Shown piece by piece: positions 25,315 through 27,182 of a stretch of 64,000 bases of DNA (within the stretch, counting starts at the first letter, position 1; the number at the start of each line of letters is the position of its first letter). Origin of the DNA: a bacterium (lineage in GTDB: Bacteria > Verrucomicrobiota > Verrucomicrobiia > Limisphaerales > UBA11358); assembly GCA_021813325.1 (NCBI GenBank), contig JAKALA010000001.1, forward strand, positions 1-64,000, written 5' to 3'. The notes under the pieces are model-generated. The model had not been told where the DNA came from. It made no database searches and saw nothing but the letters and a program-made list of their open reading frames with translations. A program made the translations under genes and the position numbers.

Positions 25315-25587
25315 TCAAACTGACATCGCGAACGTCGTCACCACGCTGCTCTCCAACGAGAGCGGCTGGATCAGTGGCCGGCGTATTGAGCCGTCCGGCG
25401 GGCAGGGGCGGTAAAGGTTACGCCTGAATCCTCGGGGCAACTTCGCGCGCGAGCCGTCGCGGAACGGTTGGCCTTGGGATTTGCCGCAAGTGCAGAACCA
25501 GTATTCCCCGGCCTTCATCGGCAGCACAAACGGCGATTTTGAGCAATGACAGGCGATGTGATTTTTCTTCGGATCGGGTTTTGTCAT
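25315..25587 (-). CDS. CDGSH-type iron-sulfur protein with lost ligands, possibly decaying
   Basis: 90 residues. The pattern GEYWFCTCGKSQGQPF followed by RDGSR clearly matches the CDGSH motif CxCxxSxxxPxCDGSH, but the third ligand Cys is Arg (codon CGC at 25459-25461) and the ligand His is Arg (CGC at 25447-25449). Each change is a single transition from the usual TGC and CAC codons. A canonical 2Fe-2S cluster is therefore not expected. The C-terminal ~40 residues (after PRGF) look unrelated to the family. The gene borders a scarred tRNA locus and may be a pseudogene. Confidence 0.65.
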   Translation of the reverse strand: MTKPDPKKNHIACHCSKSPFVLPMKAGEYWFCTCGKSQGQPFRDGSRAKLPRGFRRNLYRPCPPDGSIRRPLIQPLSLESSVVTTFAMSV

Positions 25588-25621
25588 AAAAGAGTATGCT
25601 TACATCAATACTCTCATCCTC

Positions 25622-25750
25622 CTGGCACCTTCAACAGGCCCGACCGGCTTGTTTGGAGATTACATTGACGGCCTGGCCTCCCACTTGTTGGCACAAGCCT
25701 ATCGTCCTGACAACACGCGGCACAAGTTGCGCCTCGTCGTCGCTTTCAGC
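25622..25750 (+). pseudogene. Tyrosine recombinase N-terminal relic
   Basis: The frame beginning near 25622 reads GLFGDYIDGLASHLLAQAY and then RPDNTRHKLRLVVAFS. This matches the N-terminal SAM-like core-binding start of phage/transposon tyrosine integrases (LxPYIDxFAxxLxEQGY...RxQLRVVADFS). The similarity stops about a dozen bases before the 3' end of the tRNA-Arg gene, and no catalytic domain follows. An integrase end abutting a tRNA 3' end suggests a decayed integration site. Confidence 0.5.
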
Positions 25751-25762
25751 CAAGGAACCCGT

Positions 25763-25839
25763 TGGCGCACCCGGCAGGACTTGAACCTGCAACCCCGTGA
25801 TCCGAAGTCACGTGCTCTATCCAATTGAGCTACGGGTGC
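25763..25839 (-). tRNA. tRNA-Arg (anticodon UCG)
   Basis: 77 nt including an encoded CCA. The acceptor arms are GCACCCG and CGGGUGC (25833-25839 with 25767-25773), the D-stem is GCUC/GAGC, the anticodon stem is CGUGA/UCACG around loop CUUCGGA with U33-UCG-G37, and the T-arm is GCAGG-UUCAAGU-CCUGC. The 3' end reads discriminator G then CCA. All stems pair fully. Confidence 0.95.
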
Positions 25840-25943
25840 GCTCTCCGAAAAAGCTAAGGTATCCGGCGAGGAAGTCGAGTTTTGCAAACGCAAGCCGGAT
25901 GGGCAAATGGAAATCCCTGTTGACCACAACTGAGAAACACTCA

Positions 25944-26056
25944 GCGCCTGTCTGAAATATCAAAAAGAGCCAATGTTTATGCGAGTTTGCGAAGCATGAG
26001 CCGGATCATTGCAAGGTAAATCCAGCCGGCGGCGCAGCGCCGGTCTGTTCGTGATC
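25944..26056 (-). pseudogene. IS5-family transposase C-terminal relic with terminal end
   Basis: On the minus strand the frame ending at TAA (25977-25979) reads AAGWIYLAMIRLMLRKLA, the characteristic end of IS5-group transposases. An upstream stop codon near 26052 and loss of similarity show truncation. Just beyond the gene end, GCCTGTCTGAAA (25945-25956) resembles the terminal inverted repeat of such elements. The rest of the element is gone. Confidence 0.6.
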
Positions 26057-26103
26057 ACGCGCCAAGCGGCGGCAGGAGGACTTGCTGTTTGTCTGTTTGC
26101 TGC

Positions 26104-26232
26104 GTGGGTTTACTCGGAGAAGAAGAGCTTGGAGGCAATATTTGTCCACAGGGGGCCAAAATCTAAAAGCAATCCGTAGTCAGCCGCTCCATCCAATTGA
26201 GCTTTGGGTGCGCCAAAGGCGCGTAAACCCAC
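26104..26232. repeat. 10-bp inverted repeat enclosing a tRNA relic
   Basis: GTGGGTTTAC (26104-26113) and GTAAACCCAC (26223-26232) are perfect inverted copies 109 bp apart. The enclosed segment contains the tRNA 5'-half relic. They could be the ends of a small non-autonomous element or coincidence; no target duplication was seen. Confidence 0.4.
26163..26211 (-). pseudogene. tRNA-Arg-like 5'-half relic
   Basis: On the minus strand it reads GCACCC, AAAGCUCAAUUGGAUGGAGC, then GGCUGACUACGGAUU. The D-arm is nearly identical to the intact tRNA-Arg 320 bp away, and the loop CUACGGA would carry anticodon ACG. The 3' half (anticodon stem partner, T-arm and acceptor) is missing, so it cannot fold as a tRNA. 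Confidence 0.55.
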
Positions 26233-26297
26233 AAGGCGACCTTTGCCAGCGGCAAGATTTTTCAAAACGTCAAATCAAGTTTGGCGGGCCGACGGCG

Positions 26298-27182
26298 CTA
26301 GTTCTTCGCCGGCGGCGGAACGACCGGGTTGGTCAGCGGCAATAATTCGTCGGGCGCCCGCACCACGGGATACTCGCTGGCTTTCAAGCGGCGAGTGCCG
26401 CCTCGAACCAACACTTCGCCATTCGCATCGACGGTTAAACGCGGGCGGGAAACAAAGTTATCATAAGTATCTTGCTGGGCGATGGTGCCGTCGGGATTGA
26501 CAATCGCGTAGCTGAAAATCTGCCCGCCCGTTTGCCAGAGCACGTTTAAGCGGCTTAACCGGTCGATCTGCGCCTCCGGGCGGCTGAACGACACCATCGG
26601 CCCCAAAACGCTGACTTTATAAACCCGGGCTTCCATCGTGTCGCTCACCTGCACATAAAGGCGCAACTGATCCCGGAGATAATTGGCCTGTTCCAACGTG
26701 TATTTGCGGGCGTCGGGCATTTGGTTGCCGGCGGTGGGCACGCCGAAATCCTGCTGCCACAGCTTGGCGCCGTTGATGACGTCAAACATTTTCGGCTCGC
26801 TGGTCAGTTGCGACGACCATTGCTTGATGCGCAAGGTGGCAATGACCCGGTAACGGCCCGGCTTCGTCATCGCAAAATACGGCTGCAAGTCCACCCGCTT
26901 GATGGCCATCTGCGAAGAATCCAGGTCAAACGGTCCCACAACGGGCACCTCGCCGTTTTTGATCACCACAAAGCCATCGACCGATTCGACTGAAAATGTC
27001 AGCCAAGCCGGGTCTTCGCCCAAATGCAACTGCTGTCCGGAAAGATTGGTGATCTTCACCGCCAGCGGCACGGATTCACTCGGCAGAAATTGTTCCTGCT
27101 CCAGCGACAGTTCCATGCTCACTTGGGCCGAAGCGGTGATCGCCGCCAGTATCGCCAGCCCGATTGCCAGGAAAATTTTCAT
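26298..27182 (-). CDS. Secreted protein of unknown function
   Basis: 294 residues with a signal peptide (MKIFLAIGLAILAAITASAQ). The mature N-terminal part (about 22-125) has an Ig-like beta pattern: LPSESVPLAVKITNLSGQQLHL and MTKPGRYRVIATLRI, reminiscent of intracellular-proteinase-inhibitor-like or BsuPI-type beta-sandwiches. The C-terminal part (about 190-260) repeats short beta segments such as LNVLWQTGGQIFSYAIVNPDGTI. No catalytic motif was seen. It stands alone between the scarred tRNA locus and the divergent regulator gene. Periplasmic or surface location is predicted. Confidence 0.75.
   Translation of the reverse strand: MKIFLAIGLAILAAITASAQVSMELSLEQEQFLPSESVPLAVKITNLSGQQLHLGEDPAWLTFSVESVDGFVVIKNGEVPVVGPFDLDSSQMAIKRVDLQPYFAMTKPGRYRVIATLRIKQWSSQLTSEPKMFDVINGAKLWQQDFGVPTAGNQMPDARKYTLEQANYLRDQLRLYVQVSDTMEARVYKVSVLGPMVSFSRPEAQIDRLSRLNVLWQTGGQIFSYAIVNPDGTIAQQDTYDNFVSRPRLTVDANGEVLVRGGTRRLKASEYPVVRAPDELLPLTNPVVPPPAKN

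Follow-up and report, generated by a model that had tools for sequence, protein, structure and literature searches.

Probable traces of two unrelated mobile elements beside a tRNA-Arg gene in a Verrucomicrobiota genome

Does a piece of a recombinase gene next to the 3′ end of a tRNA gene mark the place where an integrative element once entered the chromosome? A recombinase fragment beside a tRNA is by itself no proof of an attachment site, and the locus studied here raises the question. It lies in a window of 64,000 nucleotides (nt; positions 1 to 64,000 of contig JAKALA010000001.1, assembly GCA_021813325.1), in which a translation resembling the N-terminus of tyrosine recombinases ends just short of the encoded CCA of tRNA-Arg(UCG). 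A preliminary description of this DNA proposed that the translation is all that remains of the integrase of an island lost from that tRNA gene. Our analysis points instead to two unrelated mobile-element traces that probably came to lie side by side (Table 1): a fragment of a RIT-like recombinase element and, about 330 bp from tRNA-Arg(UCG), an attachment scar in a different gene, tRNA-Arg(ACG), whose displaced 5′ half the preliminary description had missed.

Table 1 Features of the locus, in window coordinates
Feature	Position	Strand	Basis
Putative tyrosine-recombinase N-terminus relic, 36 codons (GLFGDYIDGLASHLLAQAYRPDNTRHKLRLVVAFSQ), RIT-like (RitA-type)	25646..25753	+	Family profile and calibration
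tRNA-Arg(UCG), intact, CCA encoded	25763..25839	-	ARAGORN; Rfam RF00005, 70 bits; genome tRNA list
Flank upstream of tRNA-Arg(UCG), conserved with G019	25840..25888	-	tRNA and flank 83% identical over 127 bp
Decayed dispersed repeat, translation ending like an IS5-type transposase C-terminus (GWIYLAMIRLMLRKLA, then stop)	25940..26075	-	
Inferred crossover core CTACGGAT (8 bp, nt 33–40)	26172..26179	-	5′ halves end and most of the relatives' 3′ halves begin here
Displaced 5′ half of tRNA-Arg(ACG), nt 1–40	26172..26211	-	95% identity; comparison with four complete 5′-type islands
Upstream region of the split tRNA-Arg(ACG) gene (...GCGCCTTTGGC)	26212..26241	-	Resembles the region of relatives' intact genes (...CCTTTTGGC)

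A recombinase-like relic next to tRNA-Arg(UCG)

The relic lacks a start codon and a catalytic domain, and lies in a plus-strand frame that is free of stops from 25601 to 25780 and carries the peptide quoted in the preliminary description. We compared the window with a profile of 32 distinct aligned N-termini from tyrosine recombinases of approximately 440 amino acids (aa), all from the same bacterial order as the window. The open reading frame (ORF) at 25562–25825 ranked first among the 1,639 ORFs of the window, with 19.0 bits and an E-value of 8e-5 that is somewhat optimistic, because the first seeds of the profile were found through a consensus composed, with the relic peptide in view, to resemble the relic's family. 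The runner-up had an E-value of 2.1. For calibration we used 294 kb of other sequence from the same group, which had not been selected for this recombinase family, and the best score among its 7,796 ORFs was 9.5 bits. The recombinase-like translation reported beside the tRNA gene is thereby confirmed. The closest pairwise match is L076 (E = 6e-6, approximately 33% identity), and the 36 residues align ungapped to a second family member, L099, with several others recovering the same columns. The homology stops at 25753 (...AFSQ), 9 bases short of the CCA end of tRNA-Arg(UCG), where the preliminary description had placed it.

Searches with the relic alone (60 residues) returned no useful match in Pfam, NCBIfam and PHROGs, or among plasmid sequences and viral contigs. 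Against 59 genomes it gave weak matches only, and none of the ORFs at the 14 best-matching loci was integrase-like. That no database family reports the relic, that the match covers just 36 residues and that the profile seeds were picked with it in mind would all suit a chance resemblance of an antisense or intergenic frame, but the gap between 19.0 bits and the best of the unrelated ORFs, together with the ungapped alignment to L099 and the columns common to several family members, makes chance distinctly unlikely. By these alignments the relic is a real recombinase N-terminus, with the caveat that the probe behind its profile was composed with this peptide in view.

The relic's relatives form RIT-like elements

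The relatives of the relic carry a Phage_integrase domain at their C-terminus and occur in company. At one locus (L066), a second recombinase gene directly follows the relic-family gene and overlaps its end; at another (L293), three adjacent, overlapping recombinase genes are present; and one genome (G193) has four nearly identical 3.4-kb copies of a unit with three overlapping Phage_integrase genes and terminal inverted repeats. RIT elements are recombinases in a trio (RitA/B/C) of approximately 3.5 kb (PMC3414803). The relic's relatives resemble these elements in that they head a run of three overlapping tyrosine-recombinase genes within multicopy units of approximately 3.4 kb, and the relic's top rank with their profile places it with these first recombinases. 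Unlike a RIT element, the window keeps only 36 codons: RIT ends, other rit genes and the three-gene structure of approximately 3.5 kb are absent from it, and the family is likened to RITs in general rather than to a named type. Within the flanks examined, none of 46 relic-family loci has a tRNA gene or tRNA fragment nearby, so the position of the relic beside tRNA-Arg(UCG) is uninformative about the target of its element. The relic is best read, on this family resemblance, as a fragment of a RIT-like element that happens to adjoin the tRNA gene.

tRNA-Arg(UCG) and its surroundings

The intact tRNA-Arg(UCG) is the sole UCG gene of the assembly. Its counterpart in the relative G019, with which it has the upstream flank in common, sits among the chromosomal genes tgt, argB, argD and argF (a neighbourhood read from ORFs), and in relatives the gene looks like an ordinary chromosomal one. 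It can nevertheless be a target: 3′ halves of tRNA-Arg(UCG) (nt 32–77) occur in two other genomes (G013 and G026) and its 3′ end (nt 46–77) in G003, from which we take it that the gene can act as an attachment site elsewhere. The suggested check for islands at this tRNA in relatives therefore gives a partial yes, in the form of those halves in two genomes.

These relatives, together with the 9 bp that separate the relic from the CCA end, are what speaks for the relic being the integrase N-terminus of an island lost from tRNA-Arg(UCG). Three observations stand against that proposal. The relic's family forms transposon-like trios whose loci show no tRNA association; no displaced tRNA-Arg(UCG) fragment was found elsewhere in the window's genome; and the open frame of the relic continues to 25825, antisense into the tRNA, so that the recombinase gene appears cut by the tRNA rather than whole beside it. 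We regard a lost island at tRNA-Arg(UCG) as very unlikely. The preliminary interpretation was thus half right, and is partly supported: the evidence favours the recombinase relic and the hotspot, and does not support the island at this gene.

An SSV-like reading, with the attachment site within the integrase gene and the frame running into the tRNA, was prompted by the recombinase family alignment, which appears to extend (RW..) past the tRNA boundary. We rejected this reading: it needs a 9-nt insertion, and the frame antisense to the tRNA is generic.

Between the scar and hypB, tRNA-Arg(UCG) and the RIT relic are accompanied by an IS-like remnant and a weak CDGSH-type ORF. G026 has copies of the dispersed repeat at 85–87% identity on several contigs, often close to a contig end, and further copies occur in G002 and G008; judged by its translated end, the repeat may be an IS remnant. 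A 57-aa ORF overlapping it has no Pfam match. The CDGSH-type ORF (90 aa, 25315–25587, minus strand) has a weak iron–sulfur match at 20.1 bits, against a Pfam cut-off of 29.5.

A displaced 5′ half of tRNA-Arg(ACG)

The tRNA-Arg(ACG) fragment is cut at the 3′ edge of the anticodon loop and is decaying, with 2 of its 40 positions changed. Displaced 3′ halves of the same tRNA, mostly nt 33–77 and some beginning at nt 30–32, occur at nine places in seven genomes of the genus. Because of these nine places, we consider tRNA-Arg(ACG) a hotspot at which crossover takes place in the anticodon loop, and the old integration hotspot that the preliminary description had envisaged gains support. The sequence ...CCTTTGGC upstream of the fragment also precedes the intact tRNA-Arg(ACG) genes of relatives, and because of this resemblance of upstream regions we take the fragment to be the host's own 5′ half. 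The locus thus has two features of a 5′-type scar, a fragment ending at the anticodon loop and a native upstream region, and the fragment is probably what a lost integrating element actually left behind.

The window contains neither an intact tRNA-Arg(ACG) nor an integrase of the 5′-side family described below, and no such integrase is listed for the contig. The contig begins at window position 1, however, and the far end of the former island, where the integrase would be expected, falls outside it. The assembly has no tRNA-Arg(ACG) to pair with the scar, several essential tRNAs being unassembled as well. Past nt 40, the sequence has no significant likeness to the attP arm of G008, as 387 of 5,000 random 30-mers equalled it. 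The gene at 26298–27182 is present in 48 of 49 genomes; its homologues have neighbours unlike those in the window at the 29 loci examined, so a clean empty site is not demonstrable.

An integrase family upstream of tRNA 5′ ends

In G008, nt 1–40 of tRNA-Arg(ACG) are flanked by a TrwC relaxase gene on one side and a tyrosine integrase gene on the other, the layout expected of an attP that includes a tRNA 5′ half. The wider locus (L231, G008:C67:72000–78457), which also has a ParA-like gene, is a probable mobilizable element. Homologues of the G008 integrase occur in 47 of 49 genomes at E ≤ 0.001, a count that includes distant tyrosine recombinases. We considered the 25 best loci of this type in which the N-terminus is covered. 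At 22 of them a tRNA gene lies 69–152 bp ahead of the integrase start, divergently oriented and with its 5′ end facing the integrase; these tRNA genes represent 13 isoacceptors, and none of the loci has a tRNA on the 3′ side. The other three comprise two with a tRNA 5′ half only, namely the Arg-ACG half of G008 and nt 1–39 of tRNA-Arg-CCT in G062, and one with a decayed tRNA-Leu. At one locus (L253, G014:C15), the family integrase adjoins a tRNA-Leu that matches only nt 1–21 and 58–84, an apparent internal deletion. An N-terminal relic of such an integrase is also present in the window's own genome (C30:7075–7371), approximately 90 bp upstream of tRNA-Pro(CGG).

Four complete islands in the genus carry a displaced 5′ half cut like the tRNA-Arg(ACG) fragment in the window: each pairs an intact tRNA, with the integrase at its 5′ side, with a displaced 5′ half that lies 5.9–43.7 kb away and has the orientation of the intact gene. 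Identity to the intact gene ends at nt 40 in the Ser-CGA island (42 kb), at nt 41 in Pro-GGG (43.7 kb), at nt 39 in Arg-CCT (7.8 kb) and at nt 42 in Leu-CAG (5.9 kb). The contigs concerned are G049:C28, G069:C55, G067:C73 and G020:C98, and the loci L285/L286/L303–L305, L290/L306/L307, L308/L309 and L316. These islands demonstrate that 5′-type integration exists in the genus, and the window fragment, ending at nt 40, fits their signature of nt 39–42. Four further contigs (G001:C17, G042:C85, G018:C1 and G069:C105) have no displaced half in the stretch scanned, despite a 5′-side integrase and a tRNA; the pair of tRNA and displaced half is therefore not always recoverable.

The fragment might alternatively be a random truncation, produced for instance by IS activity or a deletion, and not a recombination scar. 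A transposase-like repeat approximately 100 bp away from its end and the abundance of other fragments in the region suit this reading, and roughly one chance truncation in ten would fall in the anticodon-loop region, which counts against reading the fragment as a scar. Yet the cut at nt 40 coincides with the ends of the proven displaced halves and adjoins the start of the displaced 3′ halves (nt 30–33), and we consider random truncation unlikely.

The tRNA set of the genome

The assembly of the window's genome has 43 tRNAs, among which the Tyr, Thr(UGU), Pro(UGG) and Arg(ACG) genes are absent, and it encodes TadA. As the Tyr, Thr(UGU) and Pro(UGG) genes are missing too and TadA is present, we do not claim that tRNA-Arg(ACG) has been lost. 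That integration destroyed this gene, with tRNA-Arg(UCG) now helping to read CGN codons and TadA on its way out, seems to us very improbable; if true, it would mean that a mobile element had altered the decoding set of a bacterium.

A related scenario is tRNA-dependent integration, in which an element recombined at the 8-bp core, broke the host tRNA-Arg(ACG) gene and supplied tRNA-Arg(UCG) as its replacement. Mycobacteriophages offer a precedent, with cores of 8–17 bp (PMC10865867), and the locus is like theirs in that a host tRNA is split at a short core with no rebuilt tRNA at the junction; moreover, the junction has an intact Arg tRNA approximately 330 bp away towards the island, and the assembly contains no intact tRNA-Arg(ACG) gene. 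The locus is unlike theirs in that the precedent phages carry the cognate tRNA (PMC10865867), whereas nothing indicates that tRNA-Arg(UCG) arrived with an element. Tyr, Thr(UGU) and Pro(UGG) being absent as well points to assembly gaps, and the genome still has a gene for TadA, which serves the ACG tRNA. Because tRNA-Arg(UCG) is chromosomal in character in relatives, with its upstream flank common to G019, we judge tRNA-dependent lysogeny extremely unlikely.

Proposed history and significance

We favour a history in which two unrelated events left their traces side by side. In one, a fragment of a RIT-like recombinase element would have decayed beside the chromosomal tRNA-Arg(UCG), and its junction with that tRNA has no demonstrated role. 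In the other, an integrative element with a tRNA-Arg(ACG) 5′ half in its attP, next to the integrase gene, would have recombined with the host tRNA-Arg(ACG) in the anticodon loop, at a core of nt 33–40. At one end, the element's 5′ half and promoter region, joined to the host 3′ half, would have given a rebuilt tRNA; at the other, the 5′ half that the host gene originally had would have remained, together with the host upstream region, as the displaced fragment. The island would then have extended to the left of 26172 and would now be mostly gone or past the contig end. From the arrangement in the complete islands we infer that the 5′-side integrase family made the scar in the window, and that the island to the left of it was later lost.

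In a genome that harbours integrative elements such a scar is nothing unusual. It led us, however, to a large integrase family in a Verrucomicrobiota genus that sits just upstream of tRNA genes and would supply their 5′ halves and upstream regions. With element-derived upstream regions at many tRNA genes of one lineage, basic tRNA expression may depend on mobile DNA.

Comparison with known 5′-side systems

Integration on the 5′ side of tRNA genes, the less usual one, has been recorded before, though rarely. In Islander, a 5′ tDNA fragment was found in 159 of 3,919 islands, so that this type makes up approximately 4% of mapped tRNA islands (PMC4383910). The Verrucomicrobiota islands resemble these in their displaced 5′ half upstream, their crossover in the anticodon loop and a tRNA rebuilt by the element; they differ in that one integrase family serves 13 kinds of tRNA in one genus, and the window itself holds the scar alone. 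Archaeal integrases of the pTN3 type also use the tRNA 5′ half, a mode that a review describes as seldom encountered in bacteria (PMC8371274). The cases described here are bacterial, and their integrase gene remains whole beside the tRNA, whereas the pTN3 gene is split by integration; in both systems attB is the tRNA 5′ half, and the upstream region of the rebuilt tRNA comes from the integrase side of the element (PMC8371274).
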